DNA from: Myxococcota bacterium
Lineage (GTDB): Bacteria; Myxococcota; XYA12-FULL-58-9; JALHOP01
Direction of reading: 5' to 3'
Length of the DNA: 64,000 bases
Assembly: GCA_022842935.1 (NCBI GenBank)
Contig: JALHOP010000001.1
Coordinates: 372,001-436,000, forward strand
Both the position numbers and the translations under genes were made by a program. Below are positions 2,917 through 7,902 of this stretch, one piece after another. The notes under the pieces were generated by a model. It did not search any database, had not been told where the DNA came from, and saw only the letters and a list, made by a program, of their open reading frames with translations. The stretch's first letter is position 1, and every line of letters begins with the position of its first letter.

Positions 2917-5900
2917 CTAGTAGGCGTAGACGAGCCGTGTCGACAAGCCGACACGCGTGTAGACGTTCGACGTGCGCGTCAGGTCGGCCTCGCTTTCCCA
3001 CGTGAGCTTGGGCAAGATCTCATAGGAGTAGTGGATGCCGCCGCCGCCGCCGAAGCGGACACCTCCCGGCGTTGTCCCTGCCTTCTGGTATTGCAGTGCC
3101 GGGCCGGCGAACAGTCGCAGCTCATGAGCGGCGGTACGGACGCTCAAGCTCGCAGTGAGCGCGTTTGACCAGAAGAGATCGGGGCTGAAGTATCCATCGC
3201 CGAGTGGGCCGTCGAACGCCCCGTGATCGGTGCCGTAGTGGGTGAGGTAGGTCGTGGCGCCCAGGCCGAAGCGCGTCGTGCTGTCGGCGACGGCGAACCA
3301 CTGGGCGCCGCCTTCGGCTCCCAGCTGGAGATTCGAGCTGTCGCTGTTGGCGGTGATGAAGCCAAGGTGCGGAGCCACCCACGCGTGGAGGCGATCGTGT
3401 TCGATCCGCGCTTCCACGCGGGCGAGATGGGAGCGCGCTGCGCCACGACCTTCAGCACCGACGAGCGCAAGGTAGGAGTCGAAACGCAGGGTGCGCTCGA
3501 CACTGGGGCGCAAGAGTAGGTCACCAGCGCGGTGGTCGAAGGACGCGGCGACTTCAAGGCCAGCGTCGGCCAGCGTGTGAAGGTCAATACGAGCGCTCGC
3601 GAGATCGGCCTCGCCGACCAGTACCTCGGCAAAGGCACCGACGACGGCGCCGCTCGCGCGCTCGACCCCGCTCCAGTATGTTTCGCCGCCCGCGCGCAGG
3701 CCGGCGACCACCGTGCCCGCTACCTCGAGTGAGCCGCTCGCGGTCGCGCCGAAGCCATACAGCTCGTAGACCCCCGCCGGTTGGATGAGCGCGGTAACCT
3801 TGCCCGTGACGGCCGGACCATCGCGGCCTTCGAGCTCGTAGTTGAGGCGCGCCACCGTGGCGTCGTTGGGAGCGAGCTTGCGTGCGAGACGAGCTTGCTC
3901 GAGCGCTCGCTGTCGGTCGCCCTGCGCGGCGTAGGCGCGCGCGAGACCGACGCGCGGCCTGACGTCTCGTCCATCCGCTTTGGCGGCTTGATGGTAGAGC
4001 TCCAGCGCTTGGGGCAGGGTGTCTTCGTCACTGGCAAGGAGGCCCGCGTACGCAATGCGGGACTCTCGGTCGCCTGCCTTCGTTAGCCTCTCGTATTCGT
4101 CGAGCGCTTGCTTGCGGGTGCCGGCGCGGCGGGCCAATAGACCTGCATAGGCGCGTCTCGTCTTCGCATCTTCGGGCCGCATCCGGACTAGCTCAGAGTA
4201 CGTCGCGATCGCCTTGTCGTGATACTTGCCGTCCCGCGCGTAGAGCTCGGCGAGCGTGCGGCCGGTTTCGTAGTCGTGCCGCTCCTTCCACGTCTTCTCG
4301 TATTCGGGGATAGCGCGCGTCCCTTGGGCTTCGTCCCACAACAAGAGCTTCTGGTAGTCGCGGCGCAGCGTCGCGTCATTCGGTGTCGCGTCGAGCAGTC
4401 GTTCGTATTCGTCGAGCGCAGCCCGGACGTCTTTTTTGTCCTGGGCGAGGAGCTTCGCGAGCTCGAGACGCATCGCTGGGTCGTCCTTCTTCGCGAGTCC
4501 CTGGCGGTAATAGCGGATGGCGTCTTTTCGTCGGTAGCCGTAGCGCGACCACTTGAGGCGTTGCGCTTGCGCGAAGTTTACATCGGTGTCGTCGGGAAAA
4601 CGTGCCAGGTACTTGTCGTATTGCTCGACCGCTTTGTCGTACAGCCCCTGCTGCTCGTAAGCAGTGCCGAGGCTGCGCATGGCGTCCGCGTTGTCGGGGT
4701 TGAGCTCGACCGCCTTCTCGTAGGCCTCGATCGCTGCCTTGAAATTGCCGATCTCCATGTTGGAGCGACCACGCATCATGTACCAGGACTCACGGATGCC
4801 CTCGGCATGTGCGCTCGAGCAGACACCCATGACTAGCAGCGCGGGGAGCAGAGCGCGCGCGATGCCGCGGGTGAGGTGCCAGAACATCGCAAGGTTGCTC
4901 CGGGGTTCGTTCGCGTGCGCCCTCTCCCACGATTTTGGGTGGGCGTAGAGCGCGAGCAGTAGTGCGCGCCGCTCGGCTGCGCCTAGCACGAAGCGAAACC
5001 CGAGACGCAAACGTCCTCCCCCGAGCGGCTGCTCATAGACCCGCTTCGCCGGCAAGATGAGCGGCCCGTCGTACATGTCGAGCGTTAGGTCGGCCTCTGA
5101 CGCCATCGCTAGGACCGCCGCGGAGCGTGTCACTTCGAGGGCGCATCCCGAGAGGCTGACGTCGCGTGTCGCGCCCATCTCGATACCGTCGACGCGCACC
5201 TTGAACGTGCGCCGCAAGCGCTCCTCGACGCGTCGTTGGGGCCGCTCCCAAGCGACCAACAACGCCACTGCGAGGCCCAACAGGTTCACCGTAGCCCACA
5301 CGATGTTGAGCACGTAAGCGTCGCGCTCGATACCGAACGCTGTCATCTCGACGTAACCCTTGACGATGCCAGCGAGTGTCAGCAGCGCGGCAATGATGGT
5401 GAGTAACGAAGAGCTCGCATCGAAGCTCCGCTTCGTCGACACGATTCCCTTTGGAGTCACCTTGAAGCCGAGCGACTTCGGCAAGAAGAGGTCGAACATG
5501 GCGCGAAAAAGTGGGAACGAGACGACGAGCTCGTAGACGACGCCCCAACCAAAGCGCGGCCACCCGGGCAAGAGGGCGGACGAAACCATGGGCAAAAAGA
5601 TGATGGCCGGCATGAGATATGCGAGCAACTCGGGGAGGTCGGCGAAGAGAGGGTGAAGGTGGAAGAAGAGAAAGTAGAGGGGTGTGAGCCAGTAGATGAC
5701 CCGAAAGAGGGGATGCAGAAAGTAGTAGAGCGAGGCGAAGTAGCCTAGGCGCAAGCGAAGCGGCAGTCCGCGATGAAGGATTGGGTTGTCTTTGAAGAAG
5801 ATCTGTAAGCAACCAAGCATCCATCGACGCCGCTGAACCAGGTAGCTCGAGAGATTTTCGGCGGTGAGACCGACCGCGAGGTCTTTGTCGACGAAACGTG

Positions 5901-7902
5901 TGCGCCAGCCCCGGGCGTGCAGGTGCTGGCTGGTATGGATGTCCTCGGTGATCGATAGCAGATTGAACCCGCCGTTCTCGTCGAGTGCCTTCCGGCGAAA
6001 GAGCGCGCCGCTGCCGACGAAGAAGGCGCCACCCCAGCCGTCGCGCCCATTCTGGATGGCGTGGTTGAAGAGATCTTGTTCGTTCGCCACCGTGCCCTCT
6101 AGACGAAACGCGCGCTGAAAAATGTCGTCATTGTAGAAGTGATGTGGCGTTTGTACGACCGCGAGCTTGTCGTCGACGAACCACGACACTGTCTCTTCGA
6201 GGAAGCTCGTGACCGGGATGTGGTCGGTGTCGAACACCAAGACCAGCTCGCCCGAGGTCACCGTCATGGCGTTGTTCAGGTTACCTGCCTTGGCGTGCTT
6301 CTTGGGACCCTTGATGTAGCCGGCCCCGTGCGACGCCGCGAGGGTTCGCACCTCGTCGCGGTGGCTGTCATCGCAGACCCAGATCTTCTTGTTCGCGTAG
6401 CGCATGGCGACGGCCGCGATGAGGGTCTTGTCGAGTATGTCTGTCGACTCGGAGTAGATTGGGATGAGGACATCGACCGATGGCGTGAACGAGGGGACGT
6501 CCGGCCGTGCAGGCTTCTCGCGTGGCCACAGGCCGACTTGCAGCACGAGGAGCACGACGGTGGTGAAACTGTACGCTTCAGCACACCACAACGCGATGCT
6601 GATGATCGGCCCGAAAGTCTCGACGAAGTTGAGGCTGGTCGTGAGTCGCCACACGAGGTAGCGCGCACATAGTGCGAGCCCCGAGACCACGAAAGCGACG
6701 CGCGCCGCGCGGAACCGCTTTCCAAGAAAGAACGACACGAAGGTCGCTAGCACCCAGGCTAGCGGCAAGTGAACGAGAAAGCCCTCCATGTCGAATGGCC
6801 GGAGAAAAGCGAAGAGCTCGTTACCCTGGACGACGCGGTCGAGCGCGAAGGCTCGATCGAACCACAACCAGTTGTGCAGGTAGTAAGGCGTTTCCTTGTT
6901 TTGCAACGCCTTGCCAAAAAGCTGGGCGAGCTTCTCGCGCTCGAGGCGCTCGGCGAAGTCGCGGTCCTCGACCAATGCGAGCGCATGCACCGACGCGTAG
7001 TGGGGGAGCCCTTCGAGCTGCGATAGCGGATGACCGTTCGTGTCGTACCGCTCCACGAGCCTTCCGCTCGTCGCGTAGATTTCCTCGACGTTGTCGAGTA
7101 GCACGCGAGCACTGCGCTCGGCGCGGCCGTGCCACGCCGCGTCGACGGCAAGGCGAAAGAAGAGGGGCACGACGTCATAGCCGAACGTCGCGATTTTGCC
7201 GCCCGGCTTGCTTAGCAGCAGGGTGTTCTTGTTCTTGTCGAGGTAGACGATCTCGGGAGGAAGCTTGGTCCGTTCCTGCAGCCAGTCTAGGAGGGCGTAG
7301 CTCGAGGCCGCGAGCCCCCGCCAGTCGTGCTTCGCGTCGACCTCGGCGAACACTGTGTACGACGCCGGGGCGAGATAGCCGACGTGAATGGTGACGTAGC
7401 GCTCGCGGGATGCCCAGTTCCCCGCCGAGAGATAGGGAACTCCGTTCGCGACGACGACCTCCTGCTTCCAGATGTCGTCGATGAGCGCGAGCGCTTCGCT
7501 GCGATACGTCTTCACCTCGAAGAGCCGTGAAGCGACGATCAGGGCGAGAGCGATGTCGACGTCGGCGTCGCTCGCGGTGTTGTGGTCGACGACTCCGCGA
7601 CCATCGTGTTTCCAGGCGAATAACAGGTCGCGACGGGTCCTTAGGTTTTCCTTCGTCCATCGCCAGATCGACGCGAAGGCCTCTTTGTCGCGCTGCCAGA
7701 CCGCGCGGAGCATGCCGTAGCTCTGCGCCTCGCTGGTCGTAATGCCCCGCTCGTCGAGCTCCACGACGCGTCCATCTTTGACGTAGTCGAACTCGTAGCG
7801 GCTCCAAAGCGCTGAAAGCTCGTCGAGCTGACGCAGATAGCGGTCGCTCGTACGCTCGTCGGCCGGAGCGGCCGCGAGAATCAAGGAAAGCCAGAGGGTC
7901 AC
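2917..7902 (-). CDS. Giant fusion: GH8 endoglucanase - cellulose synthase (BcsA/PilZ) - TPR - BcsC-like outer-membrane barrel
   Basis: One uninterrupted 1661-codon frame with the parts of several bcs genes in order. Residues 1-14 resemble a signal peptide. About 20-350 is glycoside hydrolase family 8, with TSEAQSYGM (general acid Glu58) and SDADVDIAL (112-119). Membrane helices at about 375-460 lead to the GT2 domain: CDDS (510-513), KAGNLNNAM, FDTDH (557-561), QTPHHFYN, FFVGSG, TED (652-654), QRRRW (690-694), then more helices and FKVTPKG. PilZ for c-di-GMP spans about 890-985 with RVEER and DVSLSG. A second signal-peptide-like stretch covers 1006-1033. TPRs follow to about 1330, and the rest is Gly/aromatic-rich beta-barrel ending in RLVYAY. 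Known logic: BcsA makes cellulose, PilZ activates it, BcsC exports, BcsZ trims. No bcsB is adjacent. The start is GTG with a weak ribosome site. Confidence 0.9.
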   Translation of the reverse strand: MTLWLSLILAAAPADERTSDRYLRQLDELSALWSRYEFDYVKDGRVVELDERGITTSEAQSYGMLRAVWQRDKEAFASIWRWTKENLRTRRDLLFAWKHDGRGVVDHNTASDADVDIALALIVASRLFEVKTYRSEALALIDDIWKQEVVVANGVPYLSAGNWASRERYVTIHVGYLAPASYTVFAEVDAKHDWRGLAASSYALLDWLQERTKLPPEIVYLDKNKNTLLLSKPGGKIATFGYDVVPLFFRLAVDAAWHGRAERSARVLLDNVEEIYATSGRLVERYDTNGHPLSQLEGLPHYASVHALALVEDRDFAERLEREKLAQLFGKALQNKETPYYLHNWLWFDRAFALDRVVQGNELFAFLRPFDMEGFLVHLPLAWVLATFVSFFLGKRFRAARVAFVVSGLALCARYLVWRLTTSLNFVETFGPIISIALWCAEAYSFTTVVLLVLQVGLWPREKPARPDVPSFTPSVDVLIPIYSESTDILDKTLIAAVAMRYANKKIWVCDDSHRDEVRTLAASHGAGYIKGPKKHAKAGNLNNAMTVTSGELVLVFDTDHIPVTSFLEETVSWFVDDKLAVVQTPHHFYNDDIFQRAFRLEGTVANEQDLFNHAIQNGRDGWGGAFFVGSGALFRRKALDENGGFNLLSITEDIHTSQHLHARGWRTRFVDKDLAVGLTAENLSSYLVQRRRWMLGCLQIFFKDNPILHRGLPLRLRLGYFASLYYFLHPLFRVIYWLTPLYFLFFHLHPLFADLPELLAYLMPAIIFLPMVSSALLPGWPRFGWGVVYELVVSFPLFRAMFDLFLPKSLGFKVTPKGIVSTKRSFDASSSLLTIIAALLTLAGIVKGYVEMTAFGIERDAYVLNIVWATVNLLGLAVALLVAWERPQRRVEERLRRTFKVRVDGIEMGATRDVSLSGCALEVTRSAAVLAMASEADLTLDMYDGPLILPAKRVYEQPLGGGRLRLGFRFVLGAAERRALLLALYAHPKSWERAHANEPRSNLAMFWHLTRGIARALLPALLVMGVCSSAHAEGIRESWYMMRGRSNMEIGNFKAAIEAYEKAVELNPDNADAMRSLGTAYEQQGLYDKAVEQYDKYLARFPDDTDVNFAQAQRLKWSRYGYRRKDAIRYYRQGLAKKDDPAMRLELAKLLAQDKKDVRAALDEYERLLDATPNDATLRRDYQKLLLWDEAQGTRAIPEYEKTWKERHDYETGRTLAELYARDGKYHDKAIATYSELVRMRPEDAKTRRAYAGLLARRAGTRKQALDEYERLTKAGDRESRIAYAGLLASDEDTLPQALELYHQAAKADGRDVRPRVGLARAYAAQGDRQRALEQARLARKLAPNDATVARLNYELEGRDGPAVTGKVTALIQPAGVYELYGFGATASGSLEVAGTVVAGLRAGGETYWSGVERASGAVVGAFAEVLVGEADLASARIDLHTLADAGLEVAASFDHRAGDLLLRPSVERTLRFDSYLALVGAEGRGAARSHLARVEARIEHDRLHAWVAPHLGFITANSDSSNLQLGAEGGAQWFAVADSTTRFGLGATTYLTHYGTDHGAFDGPLGDGYFSPDLFWSNALTASLSVRTAAHELRLFAGPALQYQKAGTTPGGVRFGGGGGIHYSYEILPKLTWESEADLTRTSNVYTRVGLSTRLVYAY
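4804..4887 (-). other. Internal signal-peptide-like segment with possible internal translation start inside the cellulose-synthase fusion
   Basis: Codons 1006-1033 of the fusion read as a textbook Sec signal peptide: an in-frame ATG (4885-4887), basic residues (HLTRGIAR), a hydrophobic core (ALLPALLVMGVC) and an AHA site before Glu-Gly. It falls exactly between the PilZ domain and the first TPR, where separate bcsA and bcsC genes would meet. GGAG lies about ten bases upstream of the ATG, so a second, separate TPR-barrel protein could start here. Alternatively the polyprotein may be cut by signal peptidase after residue 1033. Confidence 0.6.

Follow-up and report, generated by a model that had tools for sequence, protein, structure and literature searches.

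How can an inner-membrane synthase and an outer-membrane exporter be made from one gene and still reach their own membranes? The question is raised by the window analysed here, a stretch of 64,000 nucleotides from a Myxococcota bacterium, in which a single open reading frame (2917..7902, minus strand; 1661 amino acids, GTG start) encodes in order a GH8 cellulase, a BcsA-like synthase with a PilZ domain, a signal-peptide-like segment and a TPR/outer-membrane BcsC. The frame begins with a putative N-terminal signal peptide, MTLWLSLILAAAPA (7861..7902, minus strand; about residues 1-14), recognized by reading the sequence, and a similar hydrophobic N-terminus is found in those relatives whose start was read. 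In four of these relatives (L036, L039, L040 and L041) the N-terminus carries a lipobox-like LLAC and the GH8-BcsA protein may be a lipoprotein there; the N-terminus of the window fusion has no Cys. The GH8 endoglucanase domain (7078..7806, minus strand; residues 33-275; PF01270, 1.9e-33; PDB 1wzz, 4.3e-20) resembles BcsZ, having the GH8 fold together with the catalytic Glu and Asp in the motifs SE (57-58) and YD (242-243), both of which align with 1wzz.

The synthase part (4870..6774, minus strand; residues 377-1011) matches TIGR03030, the NCBIfam CelA profile and a BcsA equivalog, at 1.8e-144, under the curated cut-off; among known structures it matches 7lby and 4hg6, the BcsA proteins of E. 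coli and Rhodobacter. It has the GT2 motifs of a BcsA (D, DxD, TED and QxxRW, here including DTDH, FFVGS, TED and QRRRW), transmembrane segments and a PilZ domain (4951..5238, minus strand; residues 889-984), which keeps DVSLSG and matches PF07238 at 3.1e-4, marginally under the cut-off. The canonical BcsA motif is FFCGS, in place of which the window has FFVGS. The product may be a beta-glucan other than cellulose. The exporter part starts with a TPR solenoid (3823..4782, minus strand; residues 1041-1360), which is detected by Pfam TPR profiles, appears in a single-sequence AF2 model as confident helical repeats amounting to about nine to ten predicted TPRs, and finds TPR proteins in Foldseek. 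The same model does not build the barrel. The BcsC-type outer-membrane barrel region (2920..3816, minus strand; residues 1363-1661) is instead recognized by the C-terminal profile of the relatives' BcsC proteins, at 1.6e-37 on that part alone; the match to PF05420 (BCSC_C) at the C-terminus is weak and barely under its cut-off. The signal peptide, the TPRs and the C-terminal barrel of a BcsC exporter are all represented, and the relatives' BcsC profile covers residues 1017-1652. A scan of the genome contigs gave one TPR match only, and in a plasmid search no record covered 80% of the fusion protein.

The segment between the BcsA match (TIGR03030, 377-1011) and the TPRs, which Pfam detects from about residue 1041 on, had been described in the original prediction as a complete signal peptide at codons 1006-1033, starting at an in-frame ATG with GGAG ten bases before it. 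The coordinates are exact: the ATG (M1006) lies at 4887-4885 and the Shine-Dalgarno-like GGAG at 4898..4901, both on the minus strand and separated by ten bases. The n-region, M1006-R1016 (MFWHLTRGIAR; 4855..4887, minus strand), contains HLTRGIAR at residues 1009-1016 and is followed by the h- and c-region ALLPALLVMGVCSSAHA (4804..4854, minus strand; residues 1017-1033), which reads as ALLPALLVMGV and CSSAHA and has a predicted signal peptidase I cut at AHA↓E, the AHA ending at residue 1033 (4804). The segment thus has the n-region, the h-region and the A-x-A of a Sec/SPI signal, and aligns with BcsC signal peptides. It is the sole pass in 18,804 amino acids of CDS-like open reading frames of the window under a self-made rule (two or more Arg/Lys, a hydrophobic 12-mer and AxA) that is strict and uncalibrated, finding no N-terminal signal peptides either. 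Its hydrophobic 12-mer has a Kyte-Doolittle mean of 2.47, within the 2.02-2.75 of the relatives' BcsC signal peptides. No lipobox with Cys at +1 occurs in residues 1006-1045, the Cys there being preceded by Val, and the c-region is of the SPI type. As a protein sequence, then, the segment resembles a signal peptide beyond chance by the rule, by hydropathy and by alignment.

The origin of this segment becomes apparent from other members of the phylum. In a search of 195 genomes, nine provided a locus (L035-L043) in which a GH8-BcsA gene stands next to bcsC and which was read whole, and in 9/9 of them bcsZA (encoding GH8-BcsA) and bcsC are separate genes, with BcsA terminating in ...YLAA followed by a stop, and bcsC beginning at a start of its own with its own signal peptide. 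The window is matched at residues 771-1021 by a profile built from the relatives' BcsA tails, and from residue 1017 onwards by a profile built from their BcsC proteins, so that the fusion breakpoint falls at residues 1017-1021 (4840..4854, minus strand) and the segment sits at the BcsA/BcsC boundary, as predicted. By alignment, SWERAHANEPRSNLAMFWHLTRGIARALLP of the window is BcsA tail (L037, AWARAHETHTRSSLVLTWHFLTGIARSL; L041, TRSQLAMALQLLAGIARAFLPL), which in the relatives runs about 110 residues further, and ALLVMGVCSSAHAEGIRESWYM is the end of a BcsC signal peptide with the start of the mature protein (L041, ALLALPLTAHAGLAETWYL). The cleavage region aligns with AHA/ARA↓GL...WYL of the relatives, L041 having ...LPLTAHA↓GLAETWYL. 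Because the BcsA profile extends to 1021 and the BcsC profile begins at 1017, the signal peptide is composite on this alignment evidence: the BcsC signal peptide supplied most of the core and cleavage site, ALLVMGVCSSAHA, and the C-terminal tail of BcsA supplied the ATG, the GGAG (codons for Arg-Ser) and the n-region. The signal peptide is thus present as predicted, but it is not one complete, inherited unit.

This origin bears directly on one of the two routes that had been proposed for releasing a BcsC-like protein, namely translation initiation at the ATG at 4887 to yield a second, separate pre-BcsC. The in-frame ATG, the GGAG ten bases upstream and the signal-peptide-like sequence after it all invite this reading. 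However, Met occupies the same position inside bcsA in 8/9 relatives, where it starts nothing, and L041 has an identical GGAG-N10-ATG inside bcsA, far upstream of its stop and not used as a start. Recurring as BcsA tail codons in relatives, the ATG and GGAG no longer lend support to internal initiation. Nor is the motif beyond chance: 12% of synonymous shuffles of the open reading frame have a Shine-Dalgarno-like motif at M1006 (P = 0.12), such a motif precedes 2/20 internal in-frame ATGs of the frame, M1144 having one at equal spacing, and a spacing of 10 is long. Internal initiation as the source of the exporter is consequently unsupported, and we regard it as very unlikely.

Most simply, the fusion would have arisen by a deletion that took out what was left of the BcsA tail together with its stop codon, the spacer and the start of bcsC, although the change may also have run the other way, from an ancestral fusion that was divided in the other genomes. 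The window fusion lacks about 110 residues that the C-terminus of L037:871-4251 and the tails of the other relatives have after PilZ; most of these tails carry a DxSxxG-like motif and might represent a second, degenerate PilZ domain. Since Pfam finds nothing in that stretch of L037, this tail is PilZ-like at most. Only one genome shows the fusion. An open frame of 2225 amino acids in G037 was considered as a second BcsA-BcsC fusion and rejected, since its locus has a stop codon and a bcsC that starts on its own. The single draft genome, in 46 contigs, and the two genes in 9/9 relatives also leave room for an assembly deletion artefact or a locus decaying at the strain level, with two normal genes kept in the population. 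Against this, there are no Ns, the halves are in frame, codon-position GC shows a coding pattern unbroken through the join, the catalytic motifs are intact, and BcsA and BcsC homology both reach the join. We therefore consider such an artefact or decay unlikely.

A transmembrane scan finds three segments (375-454) ahead of the GT domain, in keeping with GH8 in the periplasm and GT2 in the cytoplasm. Behind the GT domain it finds four more and one that looks interfacial, the even count leading back to a cytoplasmic PilZ domain if 788-806 is taken, on the model of known BcsA, to be an interfacial helix; hydropathy places the internal signal at 1013-1031. With three segments before GT and PilZ last on the cytoplasmic side, the internal signal would be oriented Nin-Cout and would deliver the TPRs behind it to the periplasm. 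From its sequence, the segment is probably best read as a site of cleavage by signal peptidase I, and the predicted cut after residue 1033, the second route of the original prediction, is favoured over internal initiation by the inherited BcsC site, by the topology, and by AcsAB and a BcsA-BcsB fusion described below. In this scheme, a deletion would have joined a two-gene glucan operon without BcsB (bcsZA-bcsC) at a breakpoint inside the bcsC signal peptide to give a polyprotein. Its N-terminal signal would place GH8 in the periplasm, and GT2 and PilZ would be kept on the cytoplasmic side by the BcsA membrane segments. With its positive n-region from the BcsA tail and its core and AHA from BcsC, the composite internal signal peptide would then enter Sec Nin-Cout and be cut by signal peptidase I behind residue 1033, and the freed TPR-barrel half would reach the outer membrane by way of the periplasm, like any normal BcsC exporter. 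We hold this combination, fusion by deletion and release of the exporter half by signal peptidase I, to be reasonably likely.

The other fate would be that the segment stays as a transmembrane anchor, so that a single polypeptide joins the synthase in the inner membrane to the pore in the outer membrane and takes over from BcsB, the usual tether of BcsC. Its hydropathy would allow this, the Kyte-Doolittle value of 1.64 for its 19-mer being inside the range of BcsA transmembrane segments, and the tether itself is missing: no recognisable BcsB (PF03170), the usual partner of BcsA, is present in the 97%-complete window genome or in ten relatives with a GH8-BcsA gene. The inherited AHA cleavage site is intact, however, and the stretch of 17 residues from Arg to the cut, the Pro and the polar CSSAHA end are more like a signal peptide, and tethering a barrel in that way has no precedent known to us. 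In E. coli, BcsC is tethered by BcsB, on which BcsA activity depends, and BcsB (70 Å) and 19 TPRs (about 150 Å) span the periplasm (PMC11379886). The nine to ten or so TPRs modelled for the fusion would seem too few by comparison, which tells against a simple bridging of the envelope by an uncut chain. Retention as an anchor is therefore quite unlikely, and a real, uncut fusion, with periplasmic cellulase, synthase, TPRs and pore in one chain linking both membranes in place of BcsB, can be given very little credence.

The lack of BcsB extends beyond the fusion. Genomes with an ordinary BcsA have BcsB in 4/4 cases, and bcsZA occurs without BcsB in 11/11 genomes checked, those read carrying FFVGS and not FFCGS. 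The bcsZA genes of L035-L043 and the window may possibly constitute a BcsB-less class of glucan synthase.

If signal peptidase I does release the exporter half, the locus would offer a natural example in which one precursor supplies a synthase and an outer-membrane exporter at a fixed 1:1 ratio and is divided by the general signal peptidase. It would also indicate how two genes whose products work at different membranes may be joined with targeting preserved, the break falling inside a signal peptide.

Several systems can be compared with this locus. First, the Anaeromyxobacter-like bcsZA-bcsC loci (L035-L043) share with it the GH8-BcsA fusion, a short-TPR BcsC, FFVGS and the absence of BcsB, but consist of two genes with a stop between them, the longer BcsA tail and a bcsC start followed by its own signal peptide. 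Second, another locus of the phylum (L046:2623-7020, on contig G051:C37) has a BcsA-BcsB open reading frame of 1465 amino acids from stop to stop, reading ...FSRPDAWRLWSASRRAAVTVAALLLVLPLLAAC at the join. Its internal signal peptide is of the lipoprotein type, ends in LLAAC and occupies the same position behind PilZ as in the window fusion. Other BcsA genes of this family end in a longer tail, so that here too a shortened BcsA tail is joined straight to an internal signal peptide; this fusion differs from that of the window in its lipoprotein-type site, in the BcsB downstream and in its lineage. Given this separate fusion, the BcsA tail is suggested to be a repeated fusion site. Third, the Bradyrhizobium FbcH cytochrome b/c1 precursor likewise has a membrane protein followed by an internal signal peptide, at which signal peptidase is known to cut, as is predicted for the window; it belongs to an unrelated pathway and its product remains in the inner membrane. 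Fourth, Bcs subunits are combined in one open reading frame in the BcsZC and BcsAB fusions of Zymomonas (PMC7112194), which have no BcsA-BcsC junction, BcsZC being wholly on the periplasmic/outer-membrane side; in the literature searched, the published fusions are BcsAB and BcsZC (PMC7112194), and no BcsA-BcsC fusion was found. Finally, AcsAB of Gluconacetobacter hansenii is made as one polypeptide and processed into AcsA and AcsB (PMC4877109). Like the window fusion it is a cellulose-synthase polyprotein with the BcsA part first, split after translation as is predicted here, but its second part is a BcsB, periplasmic and anchored in the inner membrane, and not an outer-membrane exporter.
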